The notes below the pieces were generated by a model that was not told the DNA's origin, did not search any database, and was given only the letters and a program-made list of their open reading frames with translations. Of a stretch of 64,000 nucleotides of DNA, positions 2,644 to 12,300 are shown piece after piece. Where the stretch lies: the NCBI GenBank assembly GCA_946405785.1, contig CAMJIH010000001.1, positions 62,001-126,000 on the forward strand. The letters are read 5' to 3'. The number at the start of each line of letters is the position of its first letter. Position 1 is the first letter of the stretch. Made by a program: the position numbers and the translations under genes. The stretch is from an uncultured bacterium. GTDB taxonomy: Bacteria > Patescibacteriota > Gracilibacteria > Absconditabacterales > Absconditicoccaceae.

Positions 2644-3906
2644 ATGAGTATAAAAGACATTGAAGTAGAAGAACTTATTCTCTGAGAAGAAAAAAGACAA
2701 CAAGAAGGAATTGAACTTATTGCAAGTGAAAATTATCAATCAAAAGATGTATTAGCTGTTCAATCATCTGTCTTTGCTAATAAATATGCTGAATGATATC
2801 CAGGAAGAAGATATTATTGAGGACAGGAATTCACAGATAAACTCGAAAGTTTAGCTATTGAAAGAGCTAAAAAGATTTTTCATTCAGATCACGCAAACGT
2901 TCAAGCTCTTTCCGGTGCTGCTGCAAATATCTGCTTTTATACAGCAGCAATGAATCCATGAGACAGTATTCTCTGACTTGAAATGTGACATTGAGGACAC
3001 TTAACACACGGTTCTCCTGTTACATTTTTTTCTAAAGTTTTTAACTTCTATGGATATTCAACAAAACCAGATTGAAGCATCGATTACGAACAAATCCGTT
3101 CTTTAGCACATGAACATCATCCAAAAGTAATTTTAGCATGATTTAGTGCCTACCCTAGAGAATTAGACTATGAAAAATTTGTTGAAATAGCTAAAGAGGT
3201 ATGAGCAATTGCATATGCTGATATATCACATATATGATGATTTATTGCTACATGATTATTAAAAAATCCATTAGATTATGGATTTAATGCTATGATGACA
3301 ACAACACATAAATCTCTACGTTGACCAAGATGATCAATAATTCTTAGTAAAGGAATAGTATCAAATCCACTAAAAAAGCCAGAAGATACAATAGAGAATC
3401 TGCCAACAAGAATTGATCGTGCTGTATTCCCATGAATGCAAGGTTGACCTCACATGAACACTATTGCTGGAATTACTGTAGCATTAAAAGAAGTTGAATC
3501 TGAGAATTTTAAAGAATACGCAAAACAAGCACTTATCAATGCACAAATTATGGCTGAAGAATTTTTAAAGTTATGATATAAATTAGTTACATGATGAACA
3601 GATAACCATATGATAATACTAGATTTATCACAAGAAACTTATAACGGTGCAGATGTTGAAATAGCTTTAGATAAGATATGAATATCTGTTTCTAAATCAC
3701 TTATTCCTAATGATACTCGTCCTCCATTCCGTCCATCAGGTGTAAGAATAGGAACGCCAGCAATGACAACAAGATGAGTAAAAGAAAACGATATCAAAAA
3801 GATTGTTGAATTTATAAACAAAGGAATAAAAGAAAGAGATAATGATAAAGAATTAGAAATTTTAAGAAACGAAGTTAAAGAGTTTTCTACTTGTTTTCAG
3901 ATTTAG
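2644..3906 (+). CDS. glyA: Serine hydroxymethyltransferase
   Basis: [16 protein letters not shown]...[15 protein letters not shown]...[15 protein letters not shown]...[11 protein letters not shown]; stop TAG 3904-3906. Confidence 0.95.
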
Positions 3907-5920
3907 TAGTAATGATACCTCATTTATCAATAAATTCTTTATAGTTACGATATTCTTCATTTCCTTTAAGAACATTAGTATAAAATTCTTTGAAACCTGA
4001 AGAATTTTTATCAAACCAATTTTTTATACTAAAGTTCTTCTCATCTTTATTAATTTCTGTACATAAAGCATCCCAATTAGCTTTACCAAAATAGTTATAC
4101 ATAGTTTTATAATAATCCCTATTAGTTGTTTCCAAATCTTTACGTTTTGTAACCCAATCTTGGATCTCTTTCCAAACATCCTCAAATTTTAATGCTCAAT
4201 CATTAGATTTCTTTAATGCATCTAATTTATCAACAAAAACGCTAGGAGCATTATCAGGACGAACTGCACGAATAATATCACCTTTCTGCGTTTCAGTTAC
4301 AGATTTAACCACAAGCTTATCTCATTCTCACAATAGTGCAAGTATAGTTTCCTGAGACTTATCCCTTTTTGTAAATTCTTTCTCAAGTTTACCTTTAGCT
4401 TCAGTAATTAACGGACTATAACCATAATCAGAATCCCATACTTGATTAAATCACATTCTTCCCTTAGGAGTTGGAATAACTCAAATACCTCAAAATACTT
4501 TTCAAGTATTTTTAAGCATCTTATTCATTCTTTGTGATAACTGTGAATTTTCATTAAATCCTCAAATAGATCAAATAGATCATGTCAAAGCCAATTTAAT
4601 TAATTGCCACATCAATACTAAAGTAATCAAAGCCAATACAACATCTTTCAAAGATGTTGCTCAATTTTTCAAATAAACACTCACAATTCAAGCATTTTCA
4701 AGAGTAGAACTAATTTTCGGTATAGCATCCGTTCTAGTTCATGTCTTTGATTTATCTGAAAGTCCAACATTATCAAGGTAAGAAGACGCTGACTGATCAA
4801 AAAGTCTTTGAACAGTAACAACAACAATAAACATCATTGATATCCAGAAAGCAAAAATCACTGGTTTAAAGATTAAAACAATGACTTTCTTTAAATCAAG
4901 AATATCTTTTATATCATTATTCAGTAAATTTCATTTCTTTATTGATGAAAGATCAAGGGCATATATTAAAACAACAATAGGACTTATAGCAATAAATATT
5001 CGCAAAAATGCTAATCTCATAACAAGCAACACTATTAAAAGTGCCAAAGCTATTGAATAAAGAATAACCGTTCAAGATTGTAAAATAAGATTAGTTATAA
5101 CTTTCTCTATTGTATCAACACAATTTGCAGAGACTGGTATTGGTCTAGTAACAAAATCCTGAGCCTTAAAAGCTGTAGCTCAAAGATAAATAAAAGGTCC
5201 TCATAAATTGCTTGCACTAGGTAATAATGCATCCATTGTTTCTTTCTTTGGATCAACTGATCAACCACCTCATTCAGTTTTCTCAATTGAAAACCAAGTA
5301 GAATTATCTCATTCCAAATAATCATCAGTAAATGCGTTTATTACAATAATTTTTTTATCATTTAAAACATCGCTCTTAACCATTTCACTTTTAAATGTTT
5401 CTAACATTTTAGAATCAGCACTCAAAACCTGAGAAGAAAACGAAGAAACTGTTGCTAAACCAATTGTAGAAAGATCTACCAATACCATAACCATAAACCG
5501 ACTGATCTGAACAAGTACTGAAGCAACCAAAATATCCTTTACTTTACCAATTGGAGGTTTATCATCTTTAAAGAAAATATACTTAAAAATATAATAAATA
5601 AACAGAAATCATAATGCATAATTTGCAATAGTTCTCGACATTTGCCATATTTTCCACAAAAATGAATCCAAATGCATAAATTCTCAATATACCATAGCAT
5701 TAGTCATCAATACCCCAGCAAAATTTCAGAGTACTATCCAAATCCAAGAAAAGAATTTTCATAAATTAGTAAGAAATACATAGATGGTATCAAGAGAATC
5801 TTTTGTTACTCAACTACACTTACCATCTGAAGCAAAAGTAGGATAACAAGAGAAAATTATTACCATAACAATGATAATTCCTAACTTAAGATACTGTGAT
5901 AATTTTCTATTGCTGTGCAT
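3887..5920 (-). CDS. Multi-TM membrane protein, TrbL/VirB6-like (copy A)
   Basis: 677 aa, TGA=Gly; MHSNRKLSQYLKLGIIIV...; paralogous to copy B at 5907-8312; VILYSIALALLIVLLVMRLAFL(CGA)IFIAISPIVVL resembles the TrbL/VirB6 core. Confidence 0.65.
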
Positions 5921-8312
5921 CTGTTGTGGTTTCTCATCCTTTTAAAACATATTTATCATCTGATCACTTTTCAATCTTATAATTAGTTCCTCAAATTTCA
6001 CGAGTAATTCCTCCAATCTCAATTTTCTTATCTCACTTTTCATTTACATGTTTTACAATCTGTTCAAGTTTCTCCTTTGTATCCGCATTTCAAATCATCT
6101 CATTATAAACACCTTTAATCATATCAGTTTTTGAAGCCCAATTTTTTGTAGCATACACAGTATCCAATCTTGAAATCATAGCACTAGTATCTGTATATGC
6201 CGACGCATCTATTTTAAAAGCATCATTAAATGAAAGACTCGGATTATTAACAAAAGAACGTCATTTCTTTTCATCACTAGTCTTTCACCAATCCAAAAGT
6301 GACTCTAATCTCTCTTTATCATTAGACATCATATCACTCGTCAATTTCTGATAAATTTGATCAGGAGCATTCTTCAATCAAGACCAAGATAATCAATTCT
6401 TTCAAACCGGAATAATTGGAGTTGTTGAAAGGAATGTTTCTCATAATCCCTGTATTGTTCATCAAATAGACTCTCATACAGCAGTTTGCTTTATAGCCCA
6501 GAATAACAAAAACCAAGTTATTCATAATCAAAAGAACATTGTTAATAACCAAGAAACATTCAACATTGTTGAATCAAGTTTTACCTTAATAAATCATAAT
6601 AAATCCATATCAGATCATGAAAATTTTGCTCCAGTAACTTCAGCAAGATTTTCATAAAATTTAGTAGTTTCAGTCTTAGATAAATAGGCATTCGGGTCTC
6701 CTGTTCAAATTCAAACAGAATTCTTCAAAACTGTCATAAAAATAAGAGAAACTCACACAGCAAAACTAATCAAAACAGGAGCTAACAACAATTTTATTAA
6801 CTGATCAAAACTAATATATTTTTTCAAAGAATCAGGTAAACTAAAGACACCCTCAAAAACATTCACTAAAACAAGGAATGGAGAAAGAGCTATAGCAATC
6901 CACAGTAATCAAACTCTTGCAAAAAGGACAACAACCAATGCTAATAAAGGGAGAACAAGCAACAATGAAAAACATACATTTACAAATGTTATAACAAACT
7001 TTTGCCATAGTCACCTATTCCCCGCATCAAGATTTGAATATACAGACATACTCGAATATAAAGCAGCAAATGGTCATGTCATTGATCCTGCCTTTTTTAT
7101 AATGTTAGCTAATGTTATATCAGGAGATTTAGCTGATGAGTATAAACACTCCCAATCATTCTTTCCTTTCTCTCTCTTTGATGGTACAAAACCTACATTT
7201 CAACCCATACAATCCGAATTTGTATTATTTCAAAAAGTTCTACCATCTACAGAAACACTTCAACCACTAGTCTTTCATTCAGGTAAATATGAGATCTTTC
7301 AATTTGATAAAGGGAAAATAATTCACTTCTCAACAAGCTCCTTAACTGTAGATTCATTCCCGTCTTTTTCAATAATCTTTCTATAGGTATCTAACGTAGA
7401 AGCATAATTTTCATTACCTGTAGAAGCACCATTTACATAAAATTCATTATATGATAACAAAGCTCAATAATACATACAATATCAAGCCATCATTTTATAT
7501 CAATCACCTAAATCAATAAATTTTCTACCTATAGCAAATGATTGTTCCTCATCTCATCATCAAAATTTTACATGTGCAGTTTCACAAGGAGCAATATATT
7601 GATCTCATGACATTTGCCAGTAATACCTTATAGCATCCGAAATATCTCACTGAGTTTCAGGTTTTACCGTATAATCTCAAAGCTCAAAATCAACATTCAT
7701 TTTAAACATTTTAGCATCATCTCATGATCAAAGAGTTTGATCTTTTAATATAGAATAAGGTAATCATCAAATACTATACGTTAAAACTGTTGATAAATCG
7801 ACTAAAACCATCATTATGAACCAACTCGCCTGAATCAAAACACTAGCAATCAATATTTTTTTCAACAAATCAGGAAGTTTTAAGTTTTTTATTCAAGTTT
7901 TTCACGAAAAATTCCAATACAGAATTCAAAATAGAAATAAAAATCATAAAGTATAATTAGCAAAAGTTCTAACAAGTTGCCAGATCTTCCACAAAGAAAC
8001 ATCTAGCCCCATAAAAGAACCATAAATCATAGTATTATCCATAGCCAATCAAGCTAAAGCAACAAGTGGCCAAAGCAACGCAAACGCAATATTAGAAATA
8101 GCCTGCATAAAAGTATCAATTGAAGCCAACTTCTCTTTTTGAGATTGTTGTTCACTCTTATCACTAGTCTCCGCATAAACTTCATTAAAAGAAAAATAGT
8201 TCTGCTGAGGCAAAAATGAAAATCACAATAATAAGATAAATAATGACTTCAATAACAATTTCTTTTTTTGTTTTAATTGTTTTGTTAGAAATGATACAAC
8301 CTTAGATATCAT
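5907..8312 (-). CDS. Multi-TM membrane protein, TrbL/VirB6-like (copy B)
   Basis: 801 aa, TGA=Gly; shares LWKIWQ..RT.ANY.LGFLF and ILIASVLIQASWF..MVLVDLST with copy A; overlaps start of copy A by 14 nt. Confidence 0.65.
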
Positions 8313-8458
8313 ATTAAATTTTCAATAAACTAAAGAATCTTCACTCTTTAGTATCAAGTATAAACAAAAATAAAAATATAGTTAATATTACAAAAAATAT
8401 TCGTCTTTTTCTGGTTGACTTAATAATTTTTATATACAAAATATGTAAGGAATTTTAA

Positions 8459-9463
8459 CTACTCTTCAAAAAAATCCTGAATAATTTTTTTCATCTTTAA
8501 TATCTTCATTTGATAAGGATATACTTTTGTTTCTACACCCAAAAAAGAGGCAACCAAGAACAGATGCAACCTAGCAGTTACAACAATATCAGCATTCTTA
8601 ACATTCTGTGCAAAATTAGCAAAACTCTCCTCCCAATCTAATACTTCAAATTTTGTTAATAATTTCTTTTCTAATACTTCTTTATAATACAAATCATTGT
8701 ATACCTTATTACTTCATTTACTAACAGGAACATATTTTATAGTATATCAATTTGATAACAAAGATTCACATTGAAGTACTAAATCATCAAAAAATTTCTC
8801 ACCATTTTTATTAAGATTTATTAATGCAACTTTACTATGTTCAACTTCTCTTTTAATCCAACTCCATGAATAAGCAAACCAACTAGTATCAACAAAAAAC
8901 TCAGCATTTTTAAATCAATACTCATGAAGTGCTTCAACAGATTCATTATCACGTGCATAAATATATTTCACCTTTGATAACAAAAGATCAAATAACTTAG
9001 TATTCCATTTTTTTTCAGGAATCTGGATTCCTCACATAAGATAAACATTAACTTTATCTAATTTACTCCACAATGGAATTAATCAAGCAAGCCAATACCA
9101 ATAAGAATTAGGGCTTTCTTCTGTCAGAATTTCACCTCATCATATAATAACACTATCAACAGATTTATATATTCTTAATTCTCTTTTAATTTTAGAAAAA
9201 AAGTACCTACAAAAAGAACGTACTCATTTCGGAAATTCATGTAAATAAGTTATTGGCTTTAAATCAGTAAACTGAGAAAAAAAAGATTTCAACCAATTAA
9301 CATCATAAGCAGAAACAACAACTTCTTTTCACTGTTTTTGAAGCAAACGAATCGTTCACAACAAAATAAGTTCATCTCCCATATTTCTATAGGACCAATT
9401 TCCCATAATCAAAACTTTATTTCACTCTATTGGGAGAGTTTTCTCTAATTCCATTCTTTCCAT
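8459..9463 (-). CDS. Polysaccharide pyruvyl transferase family protein (CsaB/WcaK-like)
   Basis: MGNWSYRNMGDELIL...GGEILTEESPNSYWYW...ADIVVTARLHLFLVASFLGV; family-typical RLH motif. Confidence 0.8.
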
Positions 9464-9613
9464 GAGAAAAAGAAATAAGAATAAAGACAACAGATTCTAA
9501 ATAAAAGTATAAGAAAGAAATTAATAATTACAACAAAAAAGTTTTCACTTAGGATTGACTTCTCTTCCTAAAATGGATAAAAATCAAAAACATAAACAAA
9601 AAACAATACTAAT

Positions 9614-10156
9614 ATGCTTAAATTTTTCAAATTTTACAAAAAAGAGCTCCTCTGGAAAATATTCGGATCTTCCATGGGAGCCATCATTTGTGCACTATTC
9701 TATTTCAATCTTCCACAAACAATCGGGAAAACATTGGTGGGGATGTTGTGTTCATTCTGGATAATAATAGTGATATCAACACTGGTATCGCTTATCCTCT
9801 TGTTAATAACTATTCACAAGGGAGAAAACTCCCCCTATCATGCTTTCATCCTTGAACAAAAAATCATTCCACGGTTAATGCAAAAACGTCAACGAGTGAA
9901 GGACAAAATCAAGAAAGCTAAATATAGCATATTGATCGAAGAACTGAATCTCAAACTAACGTCAGATGATAGAGAAAAACTCGAAATACAAAAACGAATC
10001 AACACAATAAAACTATCATCTATCCCATGTACCGAGAAACAAAAGCTCAAGCTCAAAAAAGAGATTAAAGAAATAGAAATAGAGCTGACCAACGACCCCT
10101 CAGAGAAAATGAAATTATCTGAAGAAGTTGAAGCACTTGAAGAATTACTTCAATGA
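9614..10156 (+). CDS. Hypothetical membrane-anchored coiled-coil protein, probably standard-code foreign gene (UGA stop)
   Basis: 180 aa without a single internal TGA; all five Gly are GGN; has one CGG and two CGA codons; TGA followed 8 nt later by a perfect hairpin. Under table 25 it would extend to TAG at 10169-10171, inside the hairpin. Confidence 0.6.
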   Translation: MLKFFKFYKKELLWKIFGSSMGAIICALFYFNLPQTIGKTLVGMLCSFWIIIVISTLVSLILLLITIHKGENSPYHAFILEQKIIPRLMQKRQRVKDKIKKAKYSILIEELNLKLTSDDREKLEIQKRINTIKLSSIPCTEKQKLKLKKEIKEIEIELTNDPSEKMKLSEEVEALEELLQ

Positions 10157-10164
10157 AAAAACAT

Positions 10165-10195
10165 AAACTAGTACCATGTATTATGGTACTAGTTT
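10165..10195. terminator. Bidirectional intrinsic terminator
   Basis: AAACTAGTACCAT-GTATT-ATGGTACTAGTTT, perfect 13-bp stem between convergent genes. Confidence 0.85.
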
Positions 10196-10204
10196 TTGCT
10201 TTAC

Positions 10205-11386
10205 CTAATCTTGTAAAAAATGATTGAAATATTTTACCCTATCTTCATCAATTCAGAAACTTTTTGCAACAATAGGAACCATAAATTCAGAAGGTACTAA
10301 ATGGAGATCTATCTGTTTCTTTAATACTTTAACTAAAAGATTTAAAGAAAAATATTTTCACATAATTAATAACCGTTTTAATGGATTCTTAGTATTAGCA
10401 TGTTTCAAATAATTTTTTAATGTTAACTTTTCAATTCCTTTAGTCTCAAATAATGCATGAGGATACGGAACGAAATATCAAAAATCATGATACATCATCC
10501 ACCTTTTTACCTTAACATTTCTTGTCATCCATAGCGGCATCCGACCTAACCAACGAATCATACTATTATACCATATTAAATCAGGCTTTTCTTTTTTTAT
10601 AAAAGAATAGAATCTTATCGCCTCGTAAAGATTAAAACATCATATTCAAATTCATAACAACTTTTTAATTTTTCCTAAAACTCATTTAGGACAATTACTT
10701 CAATAAAGTACGACTTCATATCAATGACTTTCTAATAACGATTTAACATCATGAATATATGTTTCTATTCATCACACCTTATTAATAAAATCACTAACTA
10801 GTACAATTTTCTTTACTTTAAAATCAAAAGCTAATTTCTGAAATCTTTCATACCATTTCTCCTTTGAATATCTTAAGGCGATTCATTTAGATTTTTCAGC
10901 TAATTTATCATAAAAATGAAAATCATTAGCTTCTCTTTCTTTCTTTAACTTTGATATCATTTCAGAAAATTGAAGAACTTCTGTATTTCATTTACACTTA
11001 TCAATAGCATATTCATCAGGAATAAATGGAACTAATCATCATTTTTTAAATCCTACAACAGGAATTCCCCATTTTAATACATTAATTGCACTCAATCAAA
11101 AAGTTTCAATAAATCTTGAAGGCATAAGACAATAATCAATATTTTCCAAATATCTTTCAACATCAGATAATGGTTTCCATCAAAAATAATGAACATCTTT
11201 AAAACGATGAGATAATTCTAGTACTCATTCTTCATAACTTCAACTTCAAAAAATATATATCTCAAATGGAAGTTCTTTTTCTGGATATTGATTGATAAAA
11301 TCAAAAATTAAATCGAATCCTTTCTCAGTTTCCAACCTTCCTAAAAATAATAATCAAAGTTTATTATGCTTCATATAACTATTCAT
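10205..11386 (-). CDS. GT-B (GT4-like) glycosyltransferase with permuted domain order
   Basis: MNSYMKHNKLGLLFLGRLETEKGFDLIFDFI...MPSRFIETFGLSAINVLKWGIPVVG (C-domain) precedes KKIVLVSDFINKVGGIETYIHDV...VPSEFMVPIVAKSFGIDEDRVKYFNHFLQD (N-domain). Confidence 0.75.
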
Positions 11387-11520: not shown

Positions 11521-12300
11521 ATGGTTAAATCACTTATTGATACTTATCTTCAAACTGATAATAAAAAAGCTGCTGCTTCTAAACATCCAGCATTTTTAGA
11601 GCATCTCTTAGATAGAATAAAATTCCATATCTCAAAATGATGAAAAATACTTCTTATTACACTAACAAAAAAATCATCAGAAGAAGTAACAAGTTTTCTA
11701 ATATCGCAATGATTTAAAGCATTCTATCTTCATAGTGAAATCGCAGCTATTGATCGTTGGGAAATAATCAAAAAATTAAGAACATGAGAAATAGATATTA
11801 TTGTATGAGTTAATCTTTTAAGAGAATGAATTGATCTTCCAGAAGTAACATTAATCTGAGTTTTAGATGCAGATAAAGAATGATTCCTAAGATCAACAAC
11901 ATCTCTAATCCAGATTATTTGACGTGCAGCCAGAAACCCAAATAGTGAAGTTATTCTTTATGCTGATACCTTCACTGAATCTATGATTAAAGCATTACGG
12001 GAAACTTATCGTCGTCGCAATATCCAAGAAAAATTTAATAAAGAACATTGAATTACTCCAAAATTAGCTAAATCTAACGTTAAATCACTAGAAACCGTAA
12101 AAACAGATCTAGATTTAGAACAATCATTCTGAAAACTAGTAAATGATAATAAGACTAAAAAATTAAAAAGGGCAACAAAAGCAGAAAAAGCTATCATCTT
12201 AAAAGATTTAAAAATCCAATTAGATGAAGCTATAAAAGCTTGGGAATTTGAAAAAGCCGCAGTAATCCGCGACCAAATCAAAGAAATATCTTGAGAATAA
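11521..12300 (+). CDS. UvrB C-terminal half (helicase domain 2 plus UVR motif)
   Basis: [19 protein letters not shown]...[15 protein letters not shown]...[45 protein letters not shown]...[16 protein letters not shown]; no Walker A half upstream. Confidence 0.85.

Follow-up and report, generated by a model that had tools for sequence, protein, structure and literature searches.

Standard-code-like genes in the recoded genomes of an Absconditicoccaceae genus, exemplified by an old 180-amino-acid gene

How does a gene that looks as if it were written in the standard genetic code come to stand in a genome that uses another one? The question is raised by the open reading frame at 9614–10156 (+ strand, TGA stop included) of the window, the 64,000-nucleotide stretch of DNA analysed here, which belongs to the genome we call G000. 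From the ATG at 9614, 180 codons run to 10153 and are followed by a TGA at 10154–10156, the stop in the standard code and a Gly codon in the resident one. An earlier note, made from the sequence alone, had proposed that this gene obeys the standard code, and the features on which it relied were all found. The ORF contains no internal TGA and its five Gly codons are GGA (three) and GGG (two), in a window where 780 of 1340 Gly codons (58%) are TGA. Its GC3 is 0.387 versus 0.105–0.226 in every other window ORF of at least 90 aa, which bears out the impression that it is richer in GC than its surroundings, and it is the sole convincing GC3 outlier on the 157-kb contig (117 ORFs, mean 0.168, sd 0.039). 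One CGG codon (residue 87, 9872–9874, +) and two CGA codons (residue 94, 9893–9895, +; residue 128, 9995–9997, +) lie where the note judged Arg to fit. The TGA precedes by 8 nt a terminator-like hairpin at 10165–10195 (+) that is predicted to work on both strands; read with table 25, the frame extends via GKNIN to a TAG at 10169–10171 (+), the earliest stop for the resident code, in the 5' arm of this hairpin. Five non-TGA glycines would arise by chance with a probability of 0.42^5 = 1%, which is weak evidence taken singly. The pattern exceeds chance because the orthologues described below are also free of TGA and class-wide tests gave P values of 1 × 10−6 to 1 × 10−28.

The published code of Absconditabacteria reads TGA as Gly and CGA and CGG as Trp (PMC8629427), and the resident genes match it. 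In alignments of reciprocal-best native orthologues among the three genomes of the genus (G000, G001 and G002, each a draft assembly), CGA/CGG aligned with TGG 482 times, with one another 286 times and with AGA, AGG, CGT or CGC 8 times (999 cells); these codons therefore mean Trp. A tRNA-CCG (G000, G001) and a tRNA-UCG (G001) share G73 and a first pair A1:U72 or G1:U72 with tRNA-Trp; the tRNAs that read AGA/AGG have A73. No RF2 was found in the three genomes, the one match in each being RF1-like and under the RF2 cut-off. To decode in the standard way a cell needs RF2 as well as a tRNA that brings Arg to CGA/CGG, but no RF2 was found in the resident and its tRNAs for these codons look like Trp acceptors; as anticipated earlier, the resident tRNAs would mistranslate the 180-aa gene, putting Gly at its TGA and Trp at its CGA and CGG. 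This gene and the class to which it belongs show neither reassignment. Among native genes, those of the highly expressed type (L7/L12, S2, EF-Ts, EF-Tu and enolase, seen in G001 at locus L022, contig C2, ~175–179 kb, and in G027) steer clear of TGA for Gly and of CGA/CGG, all of them sense codons in the resident code.

The note had further suggested a recent transfer from a standard-code organism, and here the evidence went the other way. Orthologues were found in both other genus genomes examined, 66% identical in G002 and 40% in G001 (alignment), and in no other family genome examined. All three adjoin the same native glycosyltransferase, at 10205–11386 (−) in the window with 21 TGA-coded glycines; the native neighbour on the other side, a polysaccharide pyruvyl transferase at 8459–9490 (−), has 11. 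Internal TGA at conserved Gly, or a composition identical to that of the genome, had been named as signs against a standard-code gene. Neither was seen: TGA accounts for 0/5, 0/6 and 0/8 of the glycines in the three copies, and the window ORF is the GC3 outlier given above. Arg 87, in an invariant IPRL motif, is CGG in G000, AGA in G002 and CGA in G001; residue 94 is CGA also in G002 and AAA (Lys) in G001; residue 128 varies between CGA and AGA, the latter in G002. The stop codons are TGA, TAA and TAG, the TGA of the window matching the TAA of G002. The variation at residues 87 and 128 and at the stop is silent in the standard code, but in the resident code it would amount to Arg/Trp changes or stop loss.

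The 5' region and the terminator are also conserved between G000 and G002, the latter keeping the stem with altered pairs, and the above-chance identity of synonymous codons, 0.27, is close to a native median of 0.20. Because locus, 5' region and terminator are shared and synonymous divergence is native-like, the sequences mark the 180-aa gene as an old resident of the genus and no recent arrival. A search for a donor lineage found no homologue in 50,697 phages, 72,556 plasmids and 2.9 million viral contigs, and none in other Patescibacteria, where weak matches within the phylum span the helical C-terminus alone. A scan of genome-collection contigs gave G002 as the only one among the matches listed, and a weak match in G024 was dropped, having nine stops of all kinds and being missed by the profile. 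GC3 across the three copies is 0.39, 0.35 and 0.27; when conserved third positions were compared with those that had changed, their GC3 was compatible with amelioration and with equilibrium alike.

Two technical readings were considered at this point. A chimeric assembly or a binning error might be suspected where all genomes of the genus are drafts, and a check for a chimera had been advised. In three separate assemblies, however, the gene has the same native gene next to it, and genes of its class are embedded in long native contigs; we reject an assembly chimera because of this common synteny, and consider an artefact of either kind extremely improbable. An antisense ORF runs in phase at 9835–10164; the 180-aa ORF shows the codon-position identities (0.72/0.89/0.55) of an ordinary sense gene.

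The 180-aa gene is not alone. We identified 117 standard-code-like ORFs in ~2 Mb of the three genus genomes (ORFs of at least 90 aa, GC3 > 0.26, TGA at most 20% of Gly codons), a mechanical list based on ORF calling that will hold some false entries. Sequence comparison supports the class well. In pairs where both orthologues belong to it, CGA/CGG aligned with Arg codons in 19 of 60 cells and with TGG in none (Fisher test versus native, P = 1 × 10−28). Shared Gly columns contained no TGA in 72, 34 and 22 columns (0/128 pairwise), whereas native Gly columns switch from GGN to TGA in 34–59% (P = 3 × 10−19, 2 × 10−8 and 1 × 10−6 versus the class). With low-TGA native genes as the yardstick (10–15% switching), the strictly syntenic class members by themselves, with 29 Gly columns, gave no more than a marginal P of ~0.02. 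The in-frame TGAs of the class cluster at the 3' end, 18 of 32 within the last 20 codons where 4.9 were expected, and thus behave as true stops would.

Class genes are short (median 148 aa), seldom lie in close same-strand runs (8% versus 41% of native genes) and more often have at least two hydrophobic segments (36% versus 17%). They are scattered singly among native genes on contigs of up to 470 kb and form no one transferable unit. The few that could be named are PhoH2 (twice), thymidylate synthase, nucleoside diphosphate kinase, a PAP2 phosphatase, a deoxyribonucleotidase, an acyltransferase and TldD. Their turnover is faster than that of native genes: 36 of the 117 have a genus orthologue, and between G000 and G001 the neighbour was kept in 3 of 12 class pairs versus 289 of 394 native pairs. 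Class genes also relocate, since the second class gene that adjoins the orthologue in G001 (L014, 4151–4714, −) has its G000 counterpart elsewhere (G000_C27, 6154–6750).

Expression level or protein type could in principle set the use of TGA and the choice of codons in what would then be native genes, with CGA/CGG as tolerated Trp, and TGA is indeed avoided by native genes of the highly expressed type. Yet such genes have low GC3, contain 4 CGA/CGG in 12,869 codons and carry the leader typical of the class, AACAAA, in 0 of 41 cases, with a U-run instead; and CGA/CGG in the class never align with TGG. Expression-driven avoidance of TGA as the sole cause is refuted by the GC3, CGA/CGG content and leader of these genes, and we hold a native effect of this kind to be very unlikely. 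Native genes of all three genus genomes have a U-run at about −23 to −15 and almost no Shine-Dalgarno sequence; this run is possibly the native start signal of the lineage.

The leader sets the class apart as clearly as its codons. Upstream of the 180-aa gene lie a promoter-like element, TTGACT-N17-TAAAAA (9555–9583, +), conserved in G002, and the class-specific A-rich leader (9590–9613, +), with AACAAA at 9595–9600, AAAA at −14 to −11, A at −6 and T at −1. In the 40 nt before the ATG, 75% of class genes have AACAAA versus 8% of native ones. When genes were chosen by the leader alone, zero TGA was found in 49 of 74, versus 48 of 1189 others (P = 3 × 10−42); two definitions independent of each other thus tie leader to code. 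A at −14 to −11, a signature of Bacteroidetes (PMC6847099), had a frequency of 0.77 in the class, 0.67 in Bacteroidales and 0.40 in native genes, where the Bacteroidales sample consists of 59 genes from two records. A pyrimidine at −1 followed the same order (0.82, 0.81 and 0.53), and Shine-Dalgarno sequences were rare throughout (0.06, 0.05 and 0.04). The class thus has a Bacteroidota-type initiation region: like the start context described for that phylum (PMC6847099), it shows A at −14 to −11 and at −6, a pyrimidine at −1 and no Shine-Dalgarno sequence. The start contexts of Bacillus and Geoalkalibacter, compared in the same way, did not match the class leader.

The resemblance has limits. 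AACAAA was present in just 3% of the sampled Bacteroidales versus the 75% of class leaders, and the class promoters are not of the Bacteroidota type: TAnnTTTG preceded 6% of class leaders and 9% of native ones. TTGACA and TTGAC were found upstream of 20% and 25% of class genes versus 7% and 13% of those native genes that have a gap of at least 80 nt. Judged from their sequence, class promoters look like ordinary sigma-70 types, unlike the TAnnTTTG of Bacteroidota.

If the class were made up of imports from a standard-code donor, such as the host or its phages, that are lost or slowly recoded, the 180-aa gene would be an older import, not yet fully adapted. That class genes turn over fast and seldom keep their neighbours is in keeping with such an inflow, as are the phage-type enzymes among its named members (PhoH2, thymidylate synthase, deoxyribonucleotidase), the 126 horizontally transferred genes reported in Vampirococcus (PMC8080830) and the code-11-compatible phages reported as targets of Absconditabacteria spacers (PMC10746230). 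The fall in GC3 across the three copies of the 180-aa gene could also be amelioration. Against this stand the native-like synonymous turnover of a gene that has nevertheless changed no Gly to TGA and in which CGR is still interchangeable with AGA, the conservation of leader and terminator at one locus, and the lack of a donor homologue in phages, plasmids, viral contigs and Patescibacteria.

PhoH2 extends the comparison beyond the genus. Of 49 genomes of the family, 17, from 5 genera, contain it; TGA makes up 1 of the 473 Gly codons in these copies, while its neighbours were mostly TGA-rich. At its conserved Arg columns CGA/CGG are mixed with AGA and CGT, and its leaders in the other genera are mostly A-rich also. 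The copy in G016 has a native GC3 (0.16) and yet no TGA among 26 glycines, and the PhoH2 pairs in genera g15 and g4, with orthologous neighbours on both sides and saturated synonymous sites, retain GGN at 18/18 and 20/20 positions. A lag in composition alone does not account for this. The class PhoH2 has distant phage homologues, and the closest plasmid-borne PhoH2, from Bacteroidales at 43–44% identity, fits an inflow; the G000 PhoH2 had no relative in the 2.9 million viral contigs. On balance we regard passive inflow as somewhat unlikely. Even if it were correct, the class would measure how a recoded genome takes in foreign genes.

Sequence establishes that the class exists, which code and leader it uses, and that the 180-aa gene has long been retained vertically. 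On this footing we favour, with a probability of about one half, the reading that class genes are selected to remain legible to ribosomes that use the standard code, most likely those of a partner cell or those met through shuttling elements. The genus would then hold a second dialect, in which TGA is stop and CGA/CGG are Arg, with a higher GC3 and a Bacteroidota-like A-rich start context. That the class stays in the standard code suggests that part of the selection on it, or more, acts during standard-code translation. Because selection would act on the standard-code product and the resident lacks the parts to decode it, a standard-code ribosome would have to read these genes on some occasions at least. 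The likeliest site of such translation would be a partner, host or prey, with Bacteroidota-type ribosomes, which the genes might reach as DNA or mRNA delivered by the epibiont or on elements that shuttle between the two. Import of host DNA has been proposed for predators of the Vampirococcus type (PMC8080830), and spacers of Absconditabacteria reportedly target code-11-compatible phages (PMC10746230), which makes it plausible that the lineage meets standard-code genes. That a parasite or predator with a private code keeps partner-code genes for expression inside its partner, reprogramming the host much as a virus does, is a more specific and rather doubtful version of this idea.

The second of these routes shades into another explanation, in which phages or plasmids replicate both in the epibiont and in a standard-code host and the chromosomal copies are captured and refreshed. 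Such elements would fit the Bacteroidota-like start context, the stand-alone promoters and the coherence of the class, and code-11-compatible phages targeted by both CPR and non-CPR bacteria are among those covered in PMC10746230. Neither the 180-aa gene nor the G000 PhoH2 has a relative among the viral contigs searched, though, and the former has none among the phages and plasmids; class genes stand singly among native ones; and the epibiont would still misread CGA and CGG. We think it quite unlikely that shuttling elements account for the class.

The class has partial parallels in phages. The code-11-compatible phages predicted for Gracilibacteria and Absconditabacteria (PMC10746230) likewise have no in-frame TGA and end in a TGA stop with a close backup stop, and they too may be usable in two kinds of host. 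The compatibility described for them concerns TGA, whereas the class is chromosomal, single and partly syntenic, uses CGA/CGG as Arg and has a common leader. Code-switching phages carry recoded late genes in a standard-code host and supply suppressor tRNAs or release factors (PMC10746230); there too one genome holds two codes, but in the genus the carrier is a cell and no decoder was found in it.

If the class is indeed selected for reading by standard-code ribosomes, one chromosome would hold two dialects, differing in code, start signal and codon usage, that have stayed separate over genus-level time. The class would offer a sequence-only handle on epibiont genes that act outside their own cell, the recoding barrier could be tested as a parasite–host firewall, and annotation with code 25 would mistranslate a whole class of proteins. 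The T-DNA of Agrobacterium is a case of bacterial genes written for expression in a partner cell. The analogy is functional only: class genes are scattered and have no shown borders or transfer genes.

The product of the 180-aa gene gave sub-threshold Pfam matches only. An AlphaFold model from three sequences (mean pLDDT 86) has seven helices: two long N-terminal ones (2–32 and 37–72) with membrane-type sequence and five more, the final four helices forming two hairpins. A PDB structure search with this model returned no significant match. The predicted protein would have two helices in the membrane and, on the cytosolic side, stacked helical hairpins, and the plainest guess from the model is a membrane-anchored helical scaffold.

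In a further genome, G027, TGA use is lower (27%) and the class is not cleanly separable. On its contig C1 there are TGA-poor genes with signal peptides ending in NAQ, CAQ, FAQ or SQQ, Bacteroidota-like (for example 130352–131113, 189414–189794, 254865–255434, 303698–304159 and 320953–321537), and these could be a clue to which partner that genus has.

Other features of the locus concern native genes. Two large membrane proteins beside the 180-aa gene (3887–8357, −) had no Pfam or NCBIfam matches and are among the least conserved native pairs, with 53% and 62% identity between G000 and G002 versus a median of 83%. In the glycosyltransferase at 10205–11386, TGA-coded homologues of which occur in many family genomes, a GT1-type domain (8–151) precedes an N-terminal-type Glyco_transf_4 domain (204–385), an order like that of a circular permutation. 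At 11521–12300 (+) lies a lone C-terminal half of UvrB (259 aa; Helicase_C, UvrB and UVR domains), and a very similar stand-alone half was seen in another genus, at 188606–189370 of G027 contig C1.
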